DNA from: Streptosporangiales bacterium
Lineage (GTDB): Bacteria > Actinomycetota > Actinomycetes > Streptosporangiales > WHST01
NCBI GenBank assembly: GCA_009379825.1
Contig: WHTA01000018.1
Coordinates: 1 to 64,000, forward strand
Length of the DNA: 64,000 bases
Direction: 5' to 3'
This document shows positions 23,743 to 38,885 of the stretch, piece after piece. A program made the translations under genes and the position numbers. The notes under the pieces are model-generated. The model had not been told where the DNA came from. It did no database searches and saw only the letters and a program-made list of their open reading frames with translations. Each line of letters begins with the position of its first letter. Within the stretch, counting starts at the first letter, position 1.

Positions 23743-25051
23743 ATGAGTGGGCAGCCGGCCGACGGCGAGCGCTCGGCCGATACGAAGCGCGGCCGGGTGT
23801 CGCGCCGCCGACTGCTCGGGTTCGCCGGCACGGGGGTCGTGGGGGCGGCCGCCGTCGGCGCGGTGGCCCACGACCTCGCGGAAGCCGAGCACACCGCGGC
23901 GAGCGACCGGTTGGACCGGGCCGTACCGTTCCGGGGTCGCCACCAGGCGGGGATCACCACGCCTGCCCAGGACCGGCTGCACTTCGTCGCGTTCGACGTG
24001 CTCACCGACAGCCGCGACGAGCTGGTCGAGCTGCTGAAGGAGTGGACCAGGGCGGCGGAGCGGATGACCGGGGGCCGGCCTGCCGGGCCGCGCGGGGCGG
24101 TGGGTGGACTCCCGCAGGCCCCGCCCGACGACACCGGCGAGGCACTCGGCCTGCCACCCAGCCAGCTGACCGTCACCATCGGGTTCGGCCCCACGCTGTT
24201 CCGCGACCCGGAGGACGGGGACCGGTTCGGCATCGCGGACCGCAGGCCGAGCGCCCTGCAGGACCTGCCGCGGTTCGTCGGCGACGAGATCGACCCGGCG
24301 ATCTGCGGCGGCGACATCGCGATCCAGGCCTGTGCCAACGACCCGCAGGTCGCCGTGCACGCGATCCGCAACCTCGCGCGCATCGGGTTCGGCGCGGTCG
24401 CCGTACGGTGGTCACAGCTGGGCTTCGGGCGGACCTCGTCGACCAGCCGCGAGCAGCAGACGCTACGTAACCTGATCGGCTTCAAGGACGGCACGAACAA
24501 CCTCAAGCTCGAGGACGCCGACCTACTGCGCGAGCACCTGTGGGTCCGGCCGGGCGACGACCAGGAGTGGCTCGCCGGCGGCAGCTACCTGGTGACCCGC
24601 AGGATCCGGATGATGATCGAGACCTGGGACCGCGCGCCGCTCGACGAGCAGGAGACGATCATCGGCCGGGCCAAGGGCACGGGCGCACCACTGACCGGCG
24701 ACACCGAGTTCGACGCACTGGACTTCGACGCGAAGAACGGCGACGGCGAGCCCACCATCCCGGACGTGGCGCACGTCCGGGATGGTGGGCTCGCCCCGCA
24801 ACGGCGGTGCGCGCATCCTGCGCCGCGGCTACAACTTCATCGACGGCTCGGATCAGCTCGGCCGCCTCGACGCGGGACTGTTCTTCATCGCCTACCAGCG
24901 CGACCCTGCCGACGGGTTCATCCCCGTACAGCGCAGCCTGTCCGTCGACCTGCTGAACGAGTACATCCGCCACACGAGCAGCGGCATCTTCGCCTGCCCA
25001 CCCGGTGTCAGGCGCGACGGGGAGTACTGGGGCCAGACGCTCTTCGGCTAG
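23743..25051 (+). pseudogene. efeB: Dyp-type haem peroxidase EfeB, broken at an internal hairpin
   Basis: A Tat signal (SRRRLLGFAGTGVVGAAA) precedes a dye-decolorising-peroxidase domain with the distal motif GFKDGTNN. The C-terminal third, NGGARILRRGYNFIDG to GQTLFG, is present but in another frame. The break coincides with a 51-base perfect inverted repeat at 24745-24795 that contains the codon of the presumed proximal haem ligand (His in VAHVR). Relative to the expected H-V-R-L-A-S-P-R-N-G-G-A-R, about four extra bases lie between HVR and SPRN. If the sequence is right, EfeB is truncated after its ligand loop and iron uptake would depend on EfeUO alone. Confidence 0.8.
24745..24795. repeat. 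51-base perfect hairpin inside efeB
   Basis: Two perfectly complementary 24-base arms (24745-24768 and 24772-24795) flank a 3-base GCG loop. The left arm codes normally for GEPTIPDV. The right arm begins in frame (HVR) and then replaces the expected coding sequence with the reverse complement of the left arm, ending in the frameshift. This is the signature of strand-switch copying of a quasi-palindrome, either in the cell or during library preparation. Confidence 0.85.
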
Positions 25052-26031
25052 GTGGCGACCGACAGCGACACGGCGAAGTCGCCTGCGGGGTCGGTCCACC
25101 ACTGTGCGAGGGTCATGCCGGCGGACCGCAACTCGGCGGCGACGCGTTCCTTGCGGAACTTGGCGGAGATCTCCGTGCGCATCTCCTCGCCGGCGGCGAA
25201 CGGCACAACGAGGTCGAGATCGTCGATCGGCACGGTCTGGTCGGTGGTGGACCGCAGCCGCATCTCGACCTGCTCGAGCTCCTCGTCCCAGGCGGCGACG
25301 TGGGTGAACGTCTCGGGGTCGAAGTGGCCGTCCAGCTCGCGGTTGATCACGTGCAGCACGTTCTTGTTGAACTGCGCGGTGACCCCGGCAGCGTCGTCGT
25401 ACGCCGCGAGCAACCGCGTCGTGTCCTTCACCAGGTCGGTGCCGAGTAGCAGGGTCTCGCCCGGTGCCAGGTGTGCGCGGGTCTGGCGGAGGAAGTCCGC
25501 ACGTTCGGCCGGGGTGAGGTTGCCGATCGTGCCGCCGAGGAACGCCAGCAGCCGATTACCCTCGCGCGGCAGCAGGTGCAGCTGTTGCGCGAAGTCCGCG
25601 ACCACCCCGTGCATGGTGAGCTCCGGGTACTCGCCGTGCAGTGCGCGGACCGCGTCGACGAGAGCACTCTCGCTGACGTCCACAGGGATGTAGCGGCGCA
25701 GGCCGTCCGCCGATCGCAGGCCGTCGAGCAGCAGCCGGGTCTTCGCCGACGACCCGGAGCCCAGCTCGACGACCGTGTCGGCCGCGGACAGCCGCGCGAT
25801 CTCCACCGCGTGCTCCTCGAGGATGGTGCGCTCCGCGCGGGTCGGGTAGTACTCGGGGAGTCGGGTGATGTATTCGAAGAGCTCGCTGCCGCGCGCGTCG
25901 TAGAAGTGTTTCGGCGGCAGCACTTTCGGCCGGCCGGTGAGTCCCGACCTGACGTCGTCGGCGAGTGCCGCCGTGCTGTGCTCGTCGGTGAGGTAGCGGC
26001 TTACGGTCACGGTCGCCGTGGAGTCGTTCAT
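25048..26031 (-). CDS. egtD: L-histidine N-alpha-methyltransferase EgtD
   Basis: A SAM-dependent methyltransferase of 327 residues that trimethylates histidine to hercynine, the first step of ergothioneine synthesis. Motif I is VVELGSGSSAKTRLLLD. PPKHFYDARGSELFEYIT and LPEYYPTRAE are the EgtD family signature, and FLGGTIGNLTPAE with FNKNVLHVINRELDG line the histidine site. Last gene of egtABCD on this strand, 10 bases after egtC. Its stop overlaps that of convergent efeB by four bases. Confidence 0.95.
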   Translation of the reverse strand: MNDSTATVTVSRYLTDEHSTAALADDVRSGLTGRPKVLPPKHFYDARGSELFEYITRLPEYYPTRAERTILEEHAVEIARLSAADTVVELGSGSSAKTRLLLDGLRSADGLRRYIPVDVSESALVDAVRALHGEYPELTMHGVVADFAQQLHLLPREGNRLLAFLGGTIGNLTPAERADFLRQTRAHLAPGETLLLGTDLVKDTTRLLAAYDDAAGVTAQFNKNVLHVINRELDGHFDPETFTHVAAWDEELEQVEMRLRSTTDQTVPIDDLDLVVPFAAGEEMRTEISAKFRKERVAAELRSAGMTLAQWWTDPAGDFAVSLSVAT

Positions 26032-26041
26032 GGGATCCCTT

Positions 26042-26770
26042 CTACAAGGACGTCAGGTGCACGCCGGTGCGGTCGGCTTCGACGAGTGTGCGGTCGGGCA
26101 CCTCCTCCCAGTCGGCTCCGTCGTCGTCGGGCTCGGCGGCGAGCACGACCGCGTCGGTCGTCCGCCGTACGTAGAGCGGCTCGCCCCAGGTGGTGCCGGC
26201 GAGCAGGGAGCCGTCGGTGGCCAGCGTGGTGAGCCGCCCGTCGGCTGCGGCAGCGACGTCGGTGACGGTGCTTGCCAGCCCCGCGCCGAGCGACGCCCCG
26301 CCGGACCAGTGCGTGACGGCGAGGCCGAACATGAACGCGGAGTCGACTGCGGCCAGCGCGTCGGGCACCCAGCTCACCCGGTCCTGGAGCGTCTTGCGCA
26401 ACGCCTGCGAGTCGAAGACACAGCCGTTGTGGCTGAACAGCCAACCCTCGTGCGTGAACGGTGCCGCGCACGACTCGTCGGCCGGGTAGCCGGGCGTGGC
26501 CGATCGCACGGCCGCGAGCACACAGCCGGACTCGACGGTCGGGGCGAGGCTCGCGAACGACTGGTCGCTCCAGATCGGTTGTGCGCGCCGGTATCTGACC
26601 GGTCGGCGGTGTCCGTCGACGTACCAGCCGGCGCCGAAGCCGTCCACGTTGACGGTGCCGTGTCCTTGCCGGCGCGGCGCGTACGACTGCATCGCGAGCG
26701 AGTGCGGTGCGTCGAACACCAGTTGTTGCAGCGGCGCTCGTGGGCCCAGGTAGGCGAAATGGCGGCACAT
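26042..26770 (-). CDS. egtC: Gamma-glutamyl-hercynylcysteine sulfoxide amidohydrolase EgtC
   Basis: A class II glutamine amidotransferase-fold hydrolase of 242 residues. The N-terminal nucleophile Cys follows the initiator Met (MCRHFAYLGPRAPLQQLVF), and FSHNGCVFD and AVRSATPG are further family blocks. It removes glutamate from the sulfoxide made by EgtB. The start is fixed by the need for Cys2. It lies 13 bases after egtB and 10 before egtD. Confidence 0.95.
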   Translation of the reverse strand: MCRHFAYLGPRAPLQQLVFDAPHSLAMQSYAPRRQGHGTVNVDGFGAGWYVDGHRRPVRYRRAQPIWSDQSFASLAPTVESGCVLAAVRSATPGYPADESCAAPFTHEGWLFSHNGCVFDSQALRKTLQDRVSWVPDALAAVDSAFMFGLAVTHWSGGASLGAGLASTVTDVAAAADGRLTTLATDGSLLAGTTWGEPLYVRRTTDAVVLAAEPDDDGADWEEVPDRTLVEADRTGVHLTSL

Positions 26771-26783
26771 GCGTGAGCTCCGA

Positions 26784-28091
26784 TCAAGCGTCTCGTGCGC
26801 AGCGGAAGCCGGCGAAGATCTGCCGCCGGATCGGCAGGTCCCAGTTGCGGAAGGTCGCGCGGCACGCGGTCGGGTCGGTCGCCCAGGAACCGCCGCGCAG
26901 CACCTTGTAACCGCCGTCGAAGAAGACCTCCGAGTACTCCTGGTAGGGGAACACGCAGAAGCCGGGGTGGCCGGTGAACTCGGTGGACGTCCACTCCCAC
27001 ACGTCGCCGAGCATCTGGTGTGCACCGTAGGGCGAGGCGCCGAGCGGGAAGGAACCCGCCGGCGTCGGCCGGTAGCGGCGCTGGCCGAGGTTGACCGTGT
27101 CGTCGGTGCCGGGCTGGTCGCCCCACGGGAACCTGCGCTTGGTGCCGGTGTGCTGGTCCCACGACGCGGCCTTCTCCCATTCCGTCTCCGTGGGCAGCCG
27201 CTTGCCGGCCCATCGCGCGTAGGCGTCCGCCTCGTACCAGCAGACGTGCTGTACCGGTTCGTCCATCGGCAGCGGCTCGGGGCGGCCGAACCTGCGGCGC
27301 AGCAGCTGCCCACCCTCGTGCACCCAGAACGCCGGTGTCCGCTTGCCGGAACGGCAGCGCCAGTCCCAGCCCAGCTCGGTCCACCAGCGGCGATCGTCGT
27401 AACCGCCGTCCTCGACGAAGTGCCGGTACGCCTCGTTGCTCACCGGAGTGGTGTCGAGCCAGAACGCGGGTAGGTCGACGGTGTGTGCGGGGCGCTCGTT
27501 GTCGTACGCCCACGCGTCGGTCGAGGTGCCCATGGTGAACGGCCCACCCTCGACCAGCACCTCCGCTGCGGGTTGGGCCGTGCGCGGCGCCGGCAGGTCG
27601 TCGGTGCTCGGCAGCGCCGGCTGACCGCGCCGCAGCTGGTGGGTGGCGAGCATCGTCTCGTCGTGCTGGTGCTCGTGCTGCACCACCATCCGGTAGACGA
27701 AGCCGCCGTCGAGCAGCGAGCTCTCCTGGGTGAGCCGTACGGTGTCGAGCGAGTCGAGCACCTTGCGGCGTACCAGGCCGATGTAGTCACCGGCCTCCCG
27801 CGGCGAGAGCAGCGGCAGCGTGGGGCGTTCGGTGCGGGGATGCTCGAACGCGTCGTAGATGTCGTCGATCTCAGGGCGCATGGGTTCGATCCCCGCGGCG
27901 GCGCGGAGCAACCACAGCTCCTCGTAGTTGCCGACGTGCGCGAGATCCCACACCAGCGGCGACATCAGCCGGGAGTGCTGTGCCACCAGCTCACCGTCGT
28001 CAAGCACCTCCGTGGTGAGGCCGAGACTGCGCTGCCGCACCCGTTCCAGCTCGTCCGCGACCATCGTCTTGAGTGCGTGTTCTTCTGTCAC
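26784..28091 (-). CDS. egtB: Hercynine oxygenase / sulfoxide synthase EgtB
   Basis: A non-haem iron enzyme of 435 residues. The N-terminal DinB-like domain carries the iron motif H-x3-H-x-E in VVQHEHQHDETML, and an earlier His lies in MSPLVWDLAHVGNYEEL. The C-terminal formylglycine-enzyme-like domain has FTMGTS, WEWTSTEF and LRGGSWATD. It joins hercynine to gamma-glutamylcysteine using O2. The GTG start overlaps the egtA stop (GTGA), with GGAGG upstream. Confidence 0.95.
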   Translation of the reverse strand: MTEEHALKTMVADELERVRQRSLGLTTEVLDDGELVAQHSRLMSPLVWDLAHVGNYEELWLLRAAAGIEPMRPEIDDIYDAFEHPRTERPTLPLLSPREAGDYIGLVRRKVLDSLDTVRLTQESSLLDGGFVYRMVVQHEHQHDETMLATHQLRRGQPALPSTDDLPAPRTAQPAAEVLVEGGPFTMGTSTDAWAYDNERPAHTVDLPAFWLDTTPVSNEAYRHFVEDGGYDDRRWWTELGWDWRCRSGKRTPAFWVHEGGQLLRRRFGRPEPLPMDEPVQHVCWYEADAYARWAGKRLPTETEWEKAASWDQHTGTKRRFPWGDQPGTDDTVNLGQRRYRPTPAGSFPLGASPYGAHQMLGDVWEWTSTEFTGHPGFCVFPYQEYSEVFFDGGYKVLRGGSWATDPTACRATFRNWDLPIRRQIFAGFRCARDA

Positions 28092-29293
28092 CGTGCCTCC
28101 TCGAGTGGTTGGGCCCGTGTGGTCACGTCGTCGGCCGGGCAGCGCCCGTGGCGTACGTAGGTGTGCAGGTAGCGGTCGACGAGGGTGAGCAGCTGCGGAT
28201 GCACGCGCCCAGCGGACAGTGCGCCAAGTGCGGCGTCGAAGCAGTCGGCGGCGGCGCGCGCGAGTCGGGGGTCGGCTAGCCCGCGGCGTGCGGCGACCTG
28301 CCAGGCGCCCGCCACCGGCTCCGCCGCGGCCATGGCCAGGTCGCCGGCCCTCGGGTCGTCGACGAGGGCGGTGAGCACGGCGATCGGTACCGGCCACCAG
28401 GTCTGCGACTGTGCGTCCACGTAGCGCACCTCGAACCAACCTCGTGGCCGTACCGGCGGGAACAGGGTGGTCAGGTGGTACGCCAGGTCGTCCGTGGTCG
28501 GCGGTGCGCGGCTGTCGAGCCACTGCCTGAAGGTGAGCTCAGGCTCGCAGCGCCAGGCGCCAGGCCGCCTGCGCACCATCACCGGCGCGTCGAGCGCGTA
28601 CTCCGCCCAGCCCACGACGGGGTCGGCGCCCGGCACGGGCGCGGAGGTCCGCGGCGGGTCGAGCCGCTGCCAGACCGCCTGCCTGGCGGACTTCCACCCG
28701 GTGTGCCGGCCCGCATGTACCGGTGAGTTGGCGAACGCCGCGACGAAGACCGGGCCGACGGCGTTCAGCAGCCGCCACCGCCGTCGCACGTCGGCAGCGT
28801 CGCTTCCGGCGTCCAGGTTGACCTGCACCGCCGCAGTGCTGCACATCATCAGCCGGCCGGTGCTGCCCAGCCGGTCGTAGTACGCCTCCATGGCGTCGTA
28901 GCGGGGCGCACGCAGCTGCCGCCGCGGCGTGCGGTGCGGGTCTATCGCGGTGGGGAGGAGGGTGAGGCCGAGTGGCCGGAGCTGTCCGGCGATGTGCGAG
29001 ACGTCGGCGGCGAGAGCCTGCCAACAGGCGGTGAGGCCTACCGTGGGCGGCGAACTGAGCTCCAGCTGCCCGCCGGGTTCGAAGGTGATTGTGCTGCCCG
29101 CCGGTGGCGGTGCGTGATCTGCGAGGAGTGTCCTGAGCTGGTCGAGCGGAACCGGTCGGTGCGGTTGCGCCAGATCGGCGACGAGCCATTCCAACTCGGC
29201 GCCGACGTACGTCGGGGGACCGGTCTTGAAGCAGATGCGCTTCACGTAGCCGTGCACGTCGGCGTAGGTGTGCAGCAGCTCGGCGGTCGTCAT
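28088..29293 (-). CDS. egtA: Glutamate-cysteine ligase EgtA
   Basis: A GCS2-type ligase of about 401 residues, supplying gamma-glutamylcysteine to EgtB. VGAELEWLVADL, FEPGGQLELSSPP and MCSTAAVQVNLDAG are the ATP/metal-binding blocks of the family, and RGWFEVRYVDAQS lies late in the domain. ATG 29293 is preferred over GTG 29302 because GAGGTGG lies just upstream. First gene of egtABCD. No egtE (C-S lyase) is found here, so that step must be encoded elsewhere or be supplied by another PLP enzyme. Confidence 0.92.
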   Translation of the reverse strand: MTTAELLHTYADVHGYVKRICFKTGPPTYVGAELEWLVADLAQPHRPVPLDQLRTLLADHAPPPAGSTITFEPGGQLELSSPPTVGLTACWQALAADVSHIAGQLRPLGLTLLPTAIDPHRTPRRQLRAPRYDAMEAYYDRLGSTGRLMMCSTAAVQVNLDAGSDAADVRRRWRLLNAVGPVFVAAFANSPVHAGRHTGWKSARQAVWQRLDPPRTSAPVPGADPVVGWAEYALDAPVMVRRRPGAWRCEPELTFRQWLDSRAPPTTDDLAYHLTTLFPPVRPRGWFEVRYVDAQSQTWWPVPIAVLTALVDDPRAGDLAMAAAEPVAGAWQVAARRGLADPRLARAAADCFDAALGALSAGRVHPQLLTLVDRYLHTYVRHGRCPADDVTTRAQPLEEAR

Positions 29294-29318
29294 GCGGACC
29301 ACCTCAACCGTTGGCGGG

Positions 29319-29378: not shown

Positions 29379-30296
29379 TTACAGGTCCCAGCGGGTTTCC
29401 GGCGCCTCCGCGGAGCGCAGCAGCTGCAGAGCGGTCTCCACGACCTGCCGATGCCGCTTCGTGTCCCCGACCGGACCGATCGTGCGGCCCATCAGGTGCG
29501 GGGTGACGAGCACGCGGGGAACCCGCAGGCGTCCTGCGGTGTGCCGGAACGCGCGTACGTACACCGACACGGTGGCGATACCTGCGGCCTCGAGTGCCCT
29601 CGCGACGAGCCCGACCGACTCGTGACAGACCGGTCACGTGCCGACGAGCAGGCACACGTCGACCTCGTCGGCGACGAGCCGCTCCGCCCAGGCGGGGGCC
29701 GTCTGCTCCCGCAGCCGGACCTGCGAGGTGGCACCGGTGAACGCGAAGTGGGTGTCCGCGAGCTGCACCCGACCCTCGGCCTCGAGGTCGCGCAGGACGG
29801 CCAGCGGAAAGACGGTGCCGGGGTCGCGCTGCGCGGTCAGGGCGTCGTAGCCGGGATGCCGCGCGGTCAGCTGGGCGTCCGGCGTGTCGCGGGGGATCTC
29901 CGACAATGTCGGCGATCCGCGCAGGAACTGCTTGATGAGGGCCAGCGACTCCGCCTGGGTCGGACCATCAGGACCCATCGGGTCGTCGCCGACCCGGAAG
30001 ACACCGCCGGCGGTGATCAACGCGAGCCGCAGGTCGGCAAGATCGCCGTCCACGACGGTGAAGGGCGCGTCCTCCACCGTCGGCCCGTCGTCCTTCTCGT
30101 ACGCGGCGACCTGCGCGGCGTAGACGGCTTCCCTGACGGGCGCGTAGTCACCGGTGTCGAAGGCTTCCCCGAGTCGCTGCAGGATCTCCGCGATAGCATC
30201 CGCCGCCAGCTCGTCCGACATCGACTTGAGGAACTTGAACTGCATGTCGGCGTGCTCACCGTAGTAGAACGACGTGCGGAAGTCCTCGAAGTCCAT
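29379..30296 (-). CDS. GrdB/PrdB-like protein, probable selenoprotein with in-frame UGA (Sec221)
   Basis: The frame from ATG 30296 (MDFEDFRTSFYYGEHADMQF...) meets TGA at 29634-29636 after DVCLLVGT. It then continues in the same frame as PVCHESVGLVARALEAAG and on to FRHTAGRLRVPRVLVTPHLM and a stop at 29379, giving about 305 residues, the usual size of glycine/sarcosine/betaine-reductase selenoprotein-B-like proteins. Read as selenocysteine, the UGA gives a U-x-x-C redox motif (U-P-V-C-H). A hairpin with GGUC in its loop lies just downstream. DDPMGPDGPTQAESLALIKQFLRG is the family block. The alternative is TGA as an error for TGC (Cys). A conventional stop is unlikely because the conserved C-terminal third follows. 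Confidence 0.8.
29605..29623 (-). promoter_or_regulatory. Candidate bacterial SECIS hairpin
   Basis: On the minus strand, ACGAG pairs with CTCGT around the 9-base loop TCGGTCGGG. The stem starts 10 bases and the GGUC starts 17 bases after the UGA, inside the window expected for a bacterial SECIS that recruits SelB. The stem is short (5 bp), so this is supportive and not decisive. Confidence 0.5.
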
Positions 30297-32269: not shown

Positions 32270-34078
32270 TCAGCGACTTGGGAGGACGATGTCGTACTCG
32301 TGGATCTTGCGGTACAGGGTGGCCCTGGATATGCCGAGCAGCGTGGCGGCGCGGAGCTTGTTGCCTTCGGCGTCGTCGAGGCTCTGGACGATCGCGTCGC
32401 GTTCTGCGGACTCCAGCCGGTTGAGTGGACGTTTGTTCAACACTCGGTACTCGGCCGGGAGGTCGGTCGGGCGGATGGTGCCGGCACGCCGGCGTCGCGC
32501 GACGTCCTTGAGCAGGTCGTAGAGCTGCGCGACGTTCCCCGGCCAGCTCGCGCGCATCAGCAGGTGCATGGCGGCCGGGGAGTACGTCAACCGGCCGCCG
32601 TAGCCGAGCTTGCTGAGCAGCAGCGGTACGAGCTCGCGGAGATCCTCGGAGCGCTGGCGCAGCGGCGGGACGTGGACGGTCCAGGGGAAGAGCGCGAGGA
32701 GGCCGGCCAGCCGGGTGTCCGTCGTGGCCTCCTTGGAGAGCGTCAGGGCCACCCAGGGTGCGTGCTCGCCGTGCCCGTTGACCATCTGTTCGAGGACCGT
32801 GGTGACGGCGTCGAGCCGGTCGCCCGACAGCCGGTCCGCGTTCCTGATGACGAAGGCGTCCACCGGGTCATCGACCAGCTCCTGCTGCAGCCGCAACGCC
32901 CAGTCGCCGTCGCCCTCGTCGGCGTCCACGGCCCGTAGCCGCCCTGTCGGCTGGTGTCGCTGCTGCGCGCAACGGGCCAACGTGTAGCGGCCGGTGCCGT
33001 GCTCGCCGGCCAGGATCACCCATTCGCCCCGGGCGTACGCAGCGTCGACGTCACGGCAGCACCGCAGCCACAGCGGCGTCGACCCGACCACGCCGGGGAG
33101 GAACATCGGTGGCGAGCCGCCGACCACGGCGCCCGAAGGCACGTCGTCCGCGTCGATCAGGTCGACGTGCAAGACGCCACCGTGCAGCCGGTCGGATCGG
33201 TCGCTGTGCAGCTGGCGACAGTGCAGCCGGGCCTTGCCGCCGGTGGGCAGCGAGACGCGGGTCGTCGTACTGTCACCCGTGGTCAACGCCTGCTCCGCGT
33301 GGGAGAGCACGACGGCCTGGTCGGCGGCGTCGAGCAGCTTTCGTGCCCGGTCGTTCATCATCACGAGGTCGTCGCTGAACGCGATCACGGCTCCGGTGCT
33401 GCGCTGGCATGCCCGCAGGTACCCCTCGAACAGGGCGAGCTCGTGGTCGTGGGTGTGGGCCAACAGGCCCTGCCGGATCTGTTCGGCCGCCGTCCTCGCC
33501 AGCACCACGAGCAGCTCCCCGGCGTCCTTCCGCCAGCAGGTGAAGTCGACCGCGCCGAGCGTCTTGCCGGTGATCGGATGCCGAATGGGCGCACCCGCGC
33601 AGGCGAGGTTCTCCAGGTTCTCCGCGTAGTGCTCGTGGCCGAACACGTGGGTCGGCCGCCCCTCCTCGAGTGCGGTGCCGATGCCGTTGGTGCCGACGAA
33701 TCGTTCGCCGTAGCTGAAGCCGGGTGCCAGCTCGACGCTCTCGAGATGTCGGTTGAGGTCTGGGTCGCCGCTCTGCCGGCTCAGCACCAGCCCCGTCTGG
33801 TCGGTGAGGATCAGGCTGATCGACTGACCGCCCAGCGTGTCGCCGAGCCTCGTCAGCACCGGGCCGGCGGCGCGAACCAGGGGAGTCTCCAGGTCCTGGT
33901 CGGGTACGTACGGCAGCTCGATCCGGTCGGCCGGCACCTGGAACTCGCGTGACCGCTGCCAGGAGGCGACGATCGTGTCACGCACCGTGCCCTGCTCGAC
34001 GCGTTCCGAGGTGAGGAACCGGATGCGGTTCCGAGCGAGGTCAGGGTCGTCACCGCGGACCAACGAAGCGTCGTTCAT
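32270..34078 (-). CDS. mimR: MimR/AcoR-like GAF-AAA+-Fis activator of the monooxygenase operon
   Basis: About 602 residues: an N-terminal helical/GAF sensor (FSYGERFVGTNGIGTALEEG), an AAA+ domain and a C-terminal Fis-type helix-turn-helix (NKLRAATLLGISRATLYRKI). The AAA+ part is that of the sigma54-independent actinobacterial branch. The Walker-A Lys is Arg (GEHGTGRYT), and the GAFTGA loop that contacts sigma54 is absent. ATG 34078 has GGGAGG upstream. In mycobacteria MimR activates mimABCD from inverted repeats like the two found here. It is divergent from the monooxygenase operon. Confidence 0.88.
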   Translation of the reverse strand: MNDASLVRGDDPDLARNRIRFLTSERVEQGTVRDTIVASWQRSREFQVPADRIELPYVPDQDLETPLVRAAGPVLTRLGDTLGGQSISLILTDQTGLVLSRQSGDPDLNRHLESVELAPGFSYGERFVGTNGIGTALEEGRPTHVFGHEHYAENLENLACAGAPIRHPITGKTLGAVDFTCWRKDAGELLVVLARTAAEQIRQGLLAHTHDHELALFEGYLRACQRSTGAVIAFSDDLVMMNDRARKLLDAADQAVVLSHAEQALTTGDSTTTRVSLPTGGKARLHCRQLHSDRSDRLHGGVLHVDLIDADDVPSGAVVGGSPPMFLPGVVGSTPLWLRCCRDVDAAYARGEWVILAGEHGTGRYTLARCAQQRHQPTGRLRAVDADEGDGDWALRLQQELVDDPVDAFVIRNADRLSGDRLDAVTTVLEQMVNGHGEHAPWVALTLSKEATTDTRLAGLLALFPWTVHVPPLRQRSEDLRELVPLLLSKLGYGGRLTYSPAAMHLLMRASWPGNVAQLYDLLKDVARRRRAGTIRPTDLPAEYRVLNKRPLNRLESAERDAIVQSLDDAEGNKLRAATLLGISRATLYRKIHEYDIVLPSR

Positions 34079-34160
34079 AGGGCCTCCCACCCCCGACGGA
34101 GGACAGCTCGGCCTGCGGACACCGGTCGTCCTCGACACCAGCCTATAGCGGTGACGGCAG

Positions 34161-34187
34161 CCGGGTGTCTCAGATTGAGACACCCGG
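34161..34187. promoter_or_regulatory. MimR-type operator, site A
   Basis: A perfect inverted repeat with 12-base arms, CCGGGTGTCTCA and its complement, separated by GAT. The inner TGTCTCA-N3-TGAGACA is the AcoR/MimR-type half-site pair. It lies between mimR and the small gene at 34243, so it may serve both directions. Confidence 0.75.
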
Positions 34188-34589: not shown

Positions 34590-36242
34590 ATGAGCCGCCA
34601 AAGCGTGGCGAGAGCGCATCAGAAGATTCAAGAACTGTCCTGGGAGCCGGCGTACCACGAGCCGGTGTCGCACTACGGGACCGACTACACGTTCCAGAAG
34701 GCCAGCAAGAAGGACCCACTCAAGCAGGTCCTGCGGTCGTACTTCCCTATGCAGGAGGAGAAGGACCACCGGGTGTACGGCGCCGAGGACGGCGCGATCC
34801 GCGGCAACATGTTCCGGCAGGTCCAGGAGCGATGGCTGGAGTGGCAGAAGCTGTTCCTGAGCATCATCCCGCTGCCGGAGATCTCGGCGGCACGTGCGAT
34901 GCCACTGCTGTTCCGTACGGTGCCGAACCCAGAGCTGCACAACGGACAAGCGATCCAGATGATCGACGAGGTCCGACACTCGACGATTCAGCAGAACCTG
35001 AAGCGTCTGTACATGAACAACTACATCGACCCCGCGGGGTTCAACAGCAGTCTCCGCAACTTCCAGAACGACTACTGCGGCACCATCGGGCGCCAGTTCG
35101 CGGAGGGCTTCATCACCGGTGACGCGATCACTGCCGCGAGCATCTACCTGACGATCGTCGCGGAGACCGCGTTCACCAACACGCTGTTCGTCGCCATGCC
35201 GGCCGAGGCCGCGGCCAACGGCGACTACCTGCTGCCCACGGTATTCCACTCCGTGCAGTCCGACGAGTCCCGGCACATCAGCAACGGCTACGCCACCCTC
35301 CTGATGGCGTTGTCCGACGAGGGCAACCACCAGCTGCTCGAGCGGGACCTGCGCTACGCGTGGTGGAACAACCACCGGGTCGTCGACGCGGCGATCGGCA
35401 CCTTCATCGAGTACGGCACGAAGGACCGCCGCAAGGACCGGGAGAGCTACGCCGAGATGTGGCGACGGTGGATCTACGACGACTACTACCGCAGCTATCT
35501 CGTCCCCCTGGAGAAGTACGGTCTCACCATCCCGCACGACCTCATCGAGGAGTCGTGGAACCAGATCTGGAACAAGGGCTACGTGCACGAGGTCGCGCAG
35601 TTCTTCGCCACCGGGTGGCTCGCCAACTACTGGCGCATCGACCCGATGACGGACAAGGACTTCGAGTGGTTCGAGGAGAAGTATCCGGGCTGGTACGACA
35701 AGTACGGCAAGTGGTGGGAGAACTACAACCGCCTGTCCTATCCGAACGGGCACAACCCGATCGCGCTCGAGGACGTCGACTACGTCTACCCACACAGGTG
35801 CTGGACCTGCATGGTGCCGTGCCTGGTGCGGGAGGACATGGTCGTCGACAAGGTCCAGGGGCAGTGGCGTACCTACTGCCACGAGGCCTGCCGGTGGACC
35901 GACGCAGAGGCGTTCCGGCCGATGTACCAGGGCCGGCAGACGCCGAACATGGGCCAGCTCATCGGTTCGCGTGAGTGGGAGACGCTCTACCACGGCTGGA
36001 ACTGGGCGGACGTGGTCTCGGACATGGGGTTCGTGCGTGACGACGGCAAGACGCTGGTCGCGCAGCCGCACCTCGACCTCGACCCGAAGAAGATGTGGAC
36101 GCTGGACCACCTGCGCCGCTGCCCGCCGCTGCAGAGCCCCAACGTCCTGCTGAACCAGATGACCGACGCGGAGCGGGACGCGTTCGTCGCCGACTACAAC
36201 CGACAGGGCCCCGCTGGCCGACCATCTTCGGCCAAGTCCTGA
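34590..36242 (+). CDS. mimA: Diiron monooxygenase hydroxylase, large (alpha) subunit
   Basis: A soluble diiron hydroxylase subunit of 550 residues from the propane-2-/phenol monooxygenase (Prm/Mim) group. The two E-x-x-H iron motifs are [13 protein letters not shown] and [13 protein letters not shown]. The C-terminal zinc/cysteine-rich part ([14 protein letters not shown]) is typical of the family. It inserts oxygen at secondary carbons of propane or acetone and at phenols. AAGGAG precedes the ATG. The order alpha, reductase, beta, coupling protein is that of mimABCD. Confidence 0.95.
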
Positions 36243-36273
36243 CCGTTCGACCGTCGATCCCGACCGTAGAGAG

Positions 36274-37329
36274 ATGACCATGGGCGAGAAGCACAAGGTG
36301 ACCTTCGAACCGGTCGGGATCGACATCGAGGTCGACGAGGAGCAGACGATCCTGCGCGCGGCCGCGGAGCAGGGCGTGATGCTCATGCACGGCTGCAAGG
36401 AGGGCCAGTGCGCGTCGTGCAAGTCGTTCGTACTCGACGGTGACGACATCGAGCTCGACCGGTACTCCACCTTCGCGCTGCCCGACTTCGAGAAGGAGGA
36501 GGGCTACACCCTGCTGTGCCGGACGCACGCGTACGAGGACCTCGTCGTCGAGCTGCTCAACTACGACGAGGAGATGATCAAGTCCGGCCTGCCCATCCAG
36601 CACGCCGACGTGGAGGTCGTGAGCAAGGACAATGTGACGCACGACATCAGGCACCTCGTGGTGCGCCTCGTGGAGCCGTCGACGTTGAAGTTCTTCCCCG
36701 GCCAGTACGTGGACTTCACCGTGCCCGGCCACGACGCAACGCGTTCGTTCTCCATGGCGAACACATCCAGCGCGGACACCGGCCTGCTGGAGTTCGTCAT
36801 AAAGATCTACCCGGACGGCATGTTCTCCAACTTCCTCGACACCCAGCTGGCCGTCGGCGACCGGTTGGAGATCACCGGGCCTTTCGGCGTGTTCACGTTG
36901 CGGGACAACCCGGAAACGGAGCTGATCTTCCTCGGCGGGGGTGCCGGGATGGCGCCGATCCTGTCGCTGCTGCGTTCCATGGCGGAACGCGGTATCGACC
37001 GGCCGGCCTCGTTCTACTACGGCGCCAGGCGCCGGCAGGACCTGTGCTTCGAGGACGAACTGGCCACCCTGGCGGAGACGCTGCCCGCCTTCCGGTACGT
37101 CCCCGCCCTGTCCGAGCCGGCGAACGAGGAGGCATGGGACGGCGAGGTCGGGCTGATCACCGACGTGTTGGAGCGGATGACGGGGGACCTCTCCGGTGCC
37201 GACGCCTACGTGTGCGGACCGCCGCCCATGGTGGAAGCCGCGCTGGCTCTGCTGCCCACGCTCGGGGTCGCGGAGAAGCGGATCTTCTACGACAAGTTCA
37301 CCACCACCGGTGACGCCGACGAGAGCTAG
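36274..37329 (+). CDS. mimB: Monooxygenase reductase (2Fe-2S, FAD, NADH)
   Basis: 351 residues. The N-terminal plant-type ferredoxin domain has HGCKEGQCASCKSFV and the last ligand in LLCRTHAYED. An FAD domain follows (TRSFSMANTSS for the R-x-Y/F-S motif), then the NAD(P) domain (LGGGAGMAPILSLLRSMAE, YVCGPPPMVE). It delivers electrons from NADH to the hydroxylase. ATG 36274 or the in-frame ATG 36280. Confidence 0.95.
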   Translation: MTMGEKHKVTFEPVGIDIEVDEEQTILRAAAEQGVMLMHGCKEGQCASCKSFVLDGDDIELDRYSTFALPDFEKEEGYTLLCRTHAYEDLVVELLNYDEEMIKSGLPIQHADVEVVSKDNVTHDIRHLVVRLVEPSTLKFFPGQYVDFTVPGHDATRSFSMANTSSADTGLLEFVIKIYPDGMFSNFLDTQLAVGDRLEITGPFGVFTLRDNPETELIFLGGGAGMAPILSLLRSMAERGIDRPASFYYGARRRQDLCFEDELATLAETLPAFRYVPALSEPANEEAWDGEVGLITDVLERMTGDLSGADAYVCGPPPMVEAALALLPTLGVAEKRIFYDKFTTTGDADES

Positions 37330-37347
37330 CACCGAAGGAAGAAGCGG

Positions 37348-38517
37348 ATGACAACGACAACACAACGAAGTGTGCCGAAGCCCGTCTTCACGGACGCCGA
37401 GGCCGGCGCGAAGGTCTTCCCCGACTCGGACGCCCGCCGGTTCAACTACTTCACGGCACAGAAACGCAAGCAGAGCCACTACGAGGACGTGACCGTCGAA
37501 GTGCAACCCGACCCGAGGCACTACCTCGCCCAGGGTTGGCTCTACGGGTTCTCCGACGGCAAGGGCGGGTACCCGCTGGAGTGGACTGAGCTGAAGGCCT
37601 GGGGGTCCGACCGGCCGGTACCGAAGCGGTCGCCGGGCTCGGGTGGCCAGGGGTACGAGTGGCCCGCGCTCGGCTGGCACGAGTTCCGTGACCCCAACGA
37701 GGAGTGGGAGCTGACGCTGTACCGCTACAACTCCAACGTGGTACGTCAGCTCAACCAGAACGTCGACGCGGCACGGCAGGCCAAGGCGTTCGACCAGTGG
37801 AACCCGAACTGGGTGCAGTTCGTCGCGCACCACGTCGGTGCGTGGATGCACGTCGACCACGGGCTCGGGCTCTACCTGTTCGCCAACGCCAACCGCAGAG
37901 CTCCGACGAACATGCACAACAACGCGATCTCCGTGAACAGCATGCACAGGATCCGCGCCGCCCAGGACCTCGCGCTGTACAACCTGACCCTCAGCGAGGA
38001 GATCTCGGAGTTCGACGGTACGGCGCACGTCGAGACCTGGAACGAGGACCCGGCCTGGCAGGGCGTAAGGGAGACGGCCGAACAGCTGACCACGATCTGG
38101 GACTGGTGCGAGGCCGTGTTCGCCGCGAACATCGTCTTCGAGCCGCTCGTCGGGGAGCTGTTCCGCAGCAACATGGTCCAGCAGGCGGCACCGGCGAACG
38201 GGGACTTCGTCACACCGACGCTGGTGGGCGCGGAGGAGTACGACTACGCGGAACGCGACCTGCGCTACACGAAGCCGATGTTCCGGCTGCTGATCGACGA
38301 CAAGGAGTTCGCCGACCACAACAGGAAGATCATGCAGCGCTGGCTGGCGGACTGGGTGCCGCGGTGCATCACCGCGGCGAGGACGCTGCAGTCGCTGTGG
38401 TCACTGCCGGACGCGAAGCCACCGCGCTTCGAGGACGGCCTCGACCGTGCCAAGAGCCGCTTCGTCGGCATCTTGTCCGAACTGGATCTGCAGACACCGA
38501 AGGAGCTGGCCCAGTGA
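37348..38517 (+). CDS. mimC: Diiron monooxygenase hydroxylase, small (beta) subunit
   Basis: A 389-residue helical protein of the ferritin-like fold that pairs with the alpha subunit but lacks a full set of iron ligands. Family blocks include FNYFTAQKRKQSHYEDVTVE, TLYRYNSNVVRQLNQNVDAA and IRAAQDLALYNLTLSEEISE. It sits 18 bases after the reductase gene. Its stop overlaps the GTG of the coupling-protein gene. Confidence 0.95.
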   Translation: MTTTTQRSVPKPVFTDAEAGAKVFPDSDARRFNYFTAQKRKQSHYEDVTVEVQPDPRHYLAQGWLYGFSDGKGGYPLEWTELKAWGSDRPVPKRSPGSGGQGYEWPALGWHEFRDPNEEWELTLYRYNSNVVRQLNQNVDAARQAKAFDQWNPNWVQFVAHHVGAWMHVDHGLGLYLFANANRRAPTNMHNNAISVNSMHRIRAAQDLALYNLTLSEEISEFDGTAHVETWNEDPAWQGVRETAEQLTTIWDWCEAVFAANIVFEPLVGELFRSNMVQQAAPANGDFVTPTLVGAEEYDYAERDLRYTKPMFRLLIDDKEFADHNRKIMQRWLADWVPRCITAARTLQSLWSLPDAKPPRFEDGLDRAKSRFVGILSELDLQTPKELAQ

Positions 38518-38885
38518 CGACTTTCAAGACGGCAGAGAGCCCGTTCGAGCGCAACAACACCGCCTCCAACAAGTGTGGCTTCACCCTGATGAACAACCAG
38601 GTCGGCGTGATCGTCGCCGAGGTGATGGGACGCAAGGAGAACGTCACCATCACGCCGTTGCCGTCGATGATCAGGGTCGACGCCAAGGGCCGGATGGACG
38701 TCGTCTACAGCGAGATCGACGAGGCTGCGGGCGAGGAGGACGGCTGGTTCAACGCGGCGGAGTTCGAGGAGAGCATGTCCACCCACTACGGGCGCATGAT
38801 CCACCAGGACGACCGCACCATCATGTTCGCGAACCCCGAAGACGCCGCCGAGTTCCTCGACTTCGATCTCGTGGCTCGCTCGTAG
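38514..38885 (+). CDS. mimD: Monooxygenase coupling (effector) protein
   Basis: 123 residues, MmoB/DmpM-like: NNTASNKCGFTLMNNQVGVI, VTITPLPSMIRVDAKGRMDV and MSTHYGRMIHQDDRTIMFAN. It binds the hydroxylase, has no cofactor and tunes oxygen activation. GTG 38514 overlaps the previous stop (GTGA). Confidence 0.93.
   Translation: MTTFKTAESPFERNNTASNKCGFTLMNNQVGVIVAEVMGRKENVTITPLPSMIRVDAKGRMDVVYSEIDEAAGEEDGWFNAAEFEESMSTHYGRMIHQDDRTIMFANPEDAAEFLDFDLVARS

Follow-up and report, generated by a model that had tools for sequence, protein, structure and literature searches.

Selenocysteine (Sec) forms of GrdB and PrdB, with a U-x-x-C motif, and deiodinase-like proteins are among the listed selenoprotein families (PMC13188914). 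Genes assigned to 'PrdB' were among the commonest selenoprotein genes in the Sargasso Sea, where 42 were counted (PMC1088965), and again in the GOS data, with 235 Sec and 110 Cys forms (PMC2398784). A Sec-containing PrdB-like protein is, as such, of an already known kind. What is new here is an N-terminal helical extension, together with a recurring deiodinase-like partner. In the open-licence literature we found no description of the PrdB-like/deiodinase-like pair or of the clade, and none of selenocysteine in Nitriliruptor; a search for selenoproteins in Acidimicrobi- gave nothing relevant by title and abstract. The part of PMC13188914 that deals with operons does not mention a pairing of deiodinase-like with PrdB-like selenoproteins. 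Taken as a whole, and judged by sequence comparison, the gene very likely encodes a Sec-decoded PrdB-like reductase.

A PrdB-like reading frame with one internal TGA

The window, by which we mean the whole 64,000-nucleotide stretch that was analysed, is part of contig C18 of the draft genome G000. A frame on its minus strand, read from 30296 to 29379, has a TGA at codon 221 as its sole interruption (Table 1). The 84 sense codons downstream, the number also counted in a sequence-only reading of this DNA, are followed by TAA (29381-29379), and the product reads MDFEDF...CLLVGT-U-PVCHESVGLV...ETRWDL. That reading had further placed the UGA at the head of a U-x-x-C motif, spelled here by the codons TGA CCG GTC TGT, and had foreseen that standard annotation would truncate the protein; indeed, table-11 ORF calling ends at residue 220 (29634..30296). 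Its proposal of a GrdB/PrdB-like selenoprotein agrees with the profile matches, the sel genes and the conserved TGA reported below.

Table 1. Coordinates of the features discussed; positions are those of the window unless a locus (L) is given.
Feature	Position	Strand	Basis
Predicted PrdB/GrdB-like selenoprotein gene	29379..30296	-	305 residues + TAA; frame, profile and homologue comparison
In-frame TGA, predicted Sec221	29634..29636	-	TGA at same codon in homologues; Cys in two alphaproteobacteria
Predicted U-P-V-C redox motif (Sec221, Cys224)	29625..29636	-	Sec/Cys221 and Cys224 invariant in 11-row alignment
Putative bacterial SECIS-like hairpin, 7 bp, loop GGUCG (29612-29616)	29605..29623	-	pairing, rare codons, covariation
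PrdB/GrdB-like domain, residues 77-295	29412..30068	-	PF07355, 1.1e-11; TIGR04483, 7e-25 over 76-295
N-terminal helical extension, residues 1-75	30072..30296	-	alignment; four helices in model
egtA, neighbour only	28091..29302	-	syntenic block without selenoprotein in genus mate
Putative deiodinase-like selenoprotein gene of G000	L054:7901-8593, contig C131	+	FGSFTUPYC; perfect GCAGAG-GGUC-CUCUGC hairpin
tRNA-Sec/selD/selA/selB cluster by PrdB-like gene	L025:6940-8362 and onward; L030:6966-11892; L090:4018-8656		Nitriliruptoraceae-type genomes

Residues 77-220 matched PF07355 of the GRDB superfamily at 45.2 bits, against a gathering threshold of 22. The match to TIGR04483 (PrdB) reached 87.8 bits, against an equivalog cut-off of 300. 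The extension that precedes the domain is typical of the Nitriliruptoria-type clade and missing in PrdB; weak DUF2267/CATASP matches in some members were the only ones it gave. In a confident AlphaFold model (pLDDT 84.5, pTM 0.86), Sec221 lies between a strand and a helix, at the helix start. Phmmer and profile searches found no relatives in the PDB, and Foldseek returned no match of the model to solved structures at E <= 0.001.

Relation to proline and glycine reductases

The E-value of the TIGR04483 match, the PF07355 score above gathering and the U-x-x-C motif would all suit a true subunit of D-proline or glycine/betaine reductase, a reading we nonetheless consider improbable. The PrdB cut-off lies far above the score obtained, and identity to PrdB is only about 30%. 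Further, of the 14 family-bearing actinobacterial genomes searched with PF09338, the profile of the PrdA/GrdE pyruvoyl subunit, 13 gave no match (G000, two Nitriliruptoraceae genomes and 10 of 11 others), in a search that detected the positive control, Enterococcus raffinosus. The fourteenth genome, G643, was also positive, and there a separate GRDB-like gene with a TGA lies by the PF09338 gene in addition to a gene of the window type. We thus hold it very probable that the PrdA/GrdE partner is absent. Because such pyruvoyl subunits are lacking, the protein, by sequence a member of the GRDB superfamily, is probably not a proline or glycine reductase. The adjoining genes of G643 (C11:29392-31904, L098) are probably a real glycine-reductase-type pair in their own right; the PrdB-like gene of that genome is on C12.

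A recurring deiodinase-like neighbour

Seven close homologues (63-71% identity) were found on contigs of Nitriliruptoraceae/Euzebyaceae MAGs. The gene directly upstream in five of these seven loci encodes a deiodinase-like selenoprotein carrying GSFTUPYC, with a U-P-Y-C motif. The partner gene (P0002) matched PF00837 above gathering (3.9e-8) and contains SFTUPYC, and it has a hairpin of its own, GCAGAG-GGUC-CUCUGC, whose DNA is nearly invariant, rare CCT and GGT codons included. G000 carries such a gene with 56% identity and one TGA (Table 1), on a short contig of 8.9 kb (C131) that makes its membership of this draft genome less secure. Among the genus mates, G001 gave a weak partial match and G002 no comparable copy. 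G559 has a decayed or frameshifted copy, seen as two overlapping deiodinase-like matches (L087:4665-4908) some 4.3 kb away from its PrdB-like gene.

Ergothioneine neighbourhood and origin of the gene

The selenoprotein gene lies 76 bases upstream of egtA on the same strand, an arrangement that had led the sequence-only reading to suggest a link with ergothioneine. Were the gene co-transcribed with egtABCD, a role in ergothioneine or selenoneine metabolism could be imagined, yet comparison with relatives makes this very unlikely. In G001, a syntenic block shares 76% DNA identity with the window's egtABCD genes (25073-29305); homology there goes no further than the start of egtA, with a sigma-factor-like gene upstream in place of the selenoprotein. 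Moreover, egtA was absent from the seven nearest-homologue genomes, and none of 16 family loci had egtA, egtB or egtD. Since G001 keeps the egt block without the selenoprotein and the genomes of the nearest homologues are without egtA, the neighbourhood is lineage-specific on the sequence comparison and gives no evidence of function; the proposed link is not supported. Elsewhere in the window, a Dyp-type peroxidase/EfeB-like gene (23743-25051, plus strand) seems split between two frames near 24780 by a frameshift or sequencing error. A plus-strand gene set at 34590-38885 looks by eye like an operon for a soluble propane/alkane monooxygenase; a sigma-54-type regulator is encoded on the opposite strand (32270-34183).

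Only four of 347 genomes of the order had a match, and the window genome was the only one above 45% identity. In the tree, the window row clusters with Nitriliruptoraceae rows (support 97/92). From tree and distribution, the simplest and most likely reading is that the gene was acquired horizontally, with a Nitriliruptoria-type lineage as donor and, as recipient, a genus already equipped with the Sec machinery. The G000 assembly is a draft of 169 contigs with 3.33% contamination; we rejected contamination as the gene's origin for the window contig, whose egt block matches those of genus mates and whose tetranucleotide profile fits the genome's other contigs.

Decoding of the UGA

We consider it almost certain, from the lines of comparison that follow, that the UGA at codon 221 is decoded as selenocysteine. 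Among the checks that the sequence-only reading had named were the selA, selB, selC and selD genes and the residue, Cys or Sec, that homologues carry at this position. All four genes are present in G000; with selB and tRNA-Sec there, and with homologues that read through, neither outcome named as refuting the proposal was seen. The tRNA-Sec lies at C101:11240-11330 (78.3 bits, also called tRNA-SeC by ARAGORN) with selB immediately downstream (275 bits, above cut-off), and selA (C44:12727-13989) and selD (C44:14069-14989) are divergent neighbours, both above cut-off. Genus mates G001 and G002 have selA and selD too; G001 carries, as a separate matter, a second selD with an in-frame TGA (C5:25060-25989, L043), which probably encodes a Sec-containing SelD. 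Three loci of Nitriliruptoraceae type have the PrdB-like gene next to tRNA-Sec and selD-selA-selB.

As for the homologues, all seven close ones have TGA at the same codon and homology that reads through it, and TGA is kept at the Sec site in 24 of 24 wider actinobacterial loci inspected, a few of which belong to MAGs already counted among the seven. MAGs are the source of most homologues. Two alphaproteobacterial homologues, from Haematobacter and Roseomonas, can be translated in full with the standard code and carry Cys in place of U221 (LVPNCPICH and LVPNCPVCH). Across the phylum, about one fifth of the sampled Actinomycetota genomes (78 of 397) had a PrdB/GrdB-like match, the weakest of which may be other GRDB-type proteins; nearly all matches (84 of 91 by table count, the TGA position being verified in 24 loci) contain an internal TGA.

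The hairpin that the earlier reading had placed 10-30 bases downstream, with a GGUC loop, proved to be a 7-bp stem 11 to 29 bases past the TGA, with arms ACGAGUC (29623-29617) and GGCUCGU (29611-29605) closing a GGUCG loop. Its fold energy is unremarkable (z = 0.39) and, with z-scores near zero, was rejected as evidence. Eight close sequences share the stem codons, seven of them keeping GGA, which is rare for Gly (2-17% of Gly codons), and the two stem differences of the window both preserve pairing (A-U for G-U, U-G for U-A). These eight contain no double changes, and a wider set was therefore used. In 24 sequences including distant members, 97.0% of cells were paired compared with 82.3% after shuffling, and five of the seven stem pairs had changed on both sides (18 such cells). 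The covariation score was 0.436; shuffles gave 0.165, and sliding the register gave no more than 0.095. Distant members have the loop CGUGG, not GGUCG. Cross-species covariation and conserved rare codons thus set the hairpin far beyond chance, and are strong evidence, at the level of sequence, for an RNA element acting as a SECIS.

That the TGA is instead a true stop, the mark of a pseudogene, sequencing error or mutation that ends the protein at residue 220, agrees with where table-11 reading halts but is refuted by comparison with relatives: in some 30 other loci a TGA stands at this very codon, followed by coding sequence that is conserved and by a hairpin that covaries, and the genome's Sec machinery is complete. 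Reading of the UGA as another residue such as Trp or Cys without selenium, for which we found no specific support, is hardly credible given the sel genes and tRNA-Sec, a hairpin placed as in bacterial SECIS elements and the usual Cys/Sec correspondence with homologues.

Possible mechanism and wider meaning

In the mechanism we favour, SelB and tRNA-Sec would decode the UGA as directed by the downstream hairpin, to give a 305-residue protein whose Sec-Pro-Val-Cys centre lies at a helix start. By relation to PrdB/GrdB, the most likely first step is an attack of the residue-221 selenolate on an electrophilic substrate. Cys224 would then resolve the Se-linked intermediate as an Se-S bond, which a thiol or selenol redoxin could re-reduce. 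The enzyme is probably a stand-alone reductase. As its usual neighbour in relatives, the deiodinase-like selenoprotein is the leading candidate for an electron donor or partner. This model of a redoxin partner is tentative. Doubtful, though possible, is the fuller proposal of an undescribed two-selenoprotein system, in which a pyruvoyl-free PrdB-like Sec reductase would regain its reduced form from a deiodinase-like Sec redoxin dedicated to it. The PrdB-like half of such a system occurs widely in Actinomycetota and may also lie behind the 'proline reductase' sequences of surface sea water. Because the Actinomycetota matches mostly lack a proline or glycine reductase partner where tested, many of the hundreds of marine sequences labelled 'proline reductase' may be misnamed. 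The real selenium-dependent reaction is now open to search, and the recurring neighbour offers a concrete partner to test.

Comparison with known systems

The UGSC family (PF24696/NF041046) shows weak similarity near the Sec site (E = 0.013 and 0.0013), but membership was rejected: both scores fall below cut-off (16.1 against 25 and 18.8 against 125 bits) and the motif is UPVC, not UGSC. The bacterial deiodinase-like selenoproteins (PF00837; U-x-x-C form in PMC13188914) resemble the partner gene rather than the window protein. GrdB/F/H, the selenoprotein B of glycine, sarcosine and betaine reductases (PF07355), is homologous in its C-terminal part and has the Sec motif in the same place, whereas the window protein is without about 210 N-terminal profile positions and a GrdE-type PF09338 partner. 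PrdB (TIGR04483) and the Sec 'PrdB' proteins of marine metagenomes share with it a homologous domain, the U-x-x-C motif and the common occurrence of the Sec form. Unlike PrdB, the window protein stands without a PrdA partner, scores far under the cut-off and carries an extra N-terminal helical domain.
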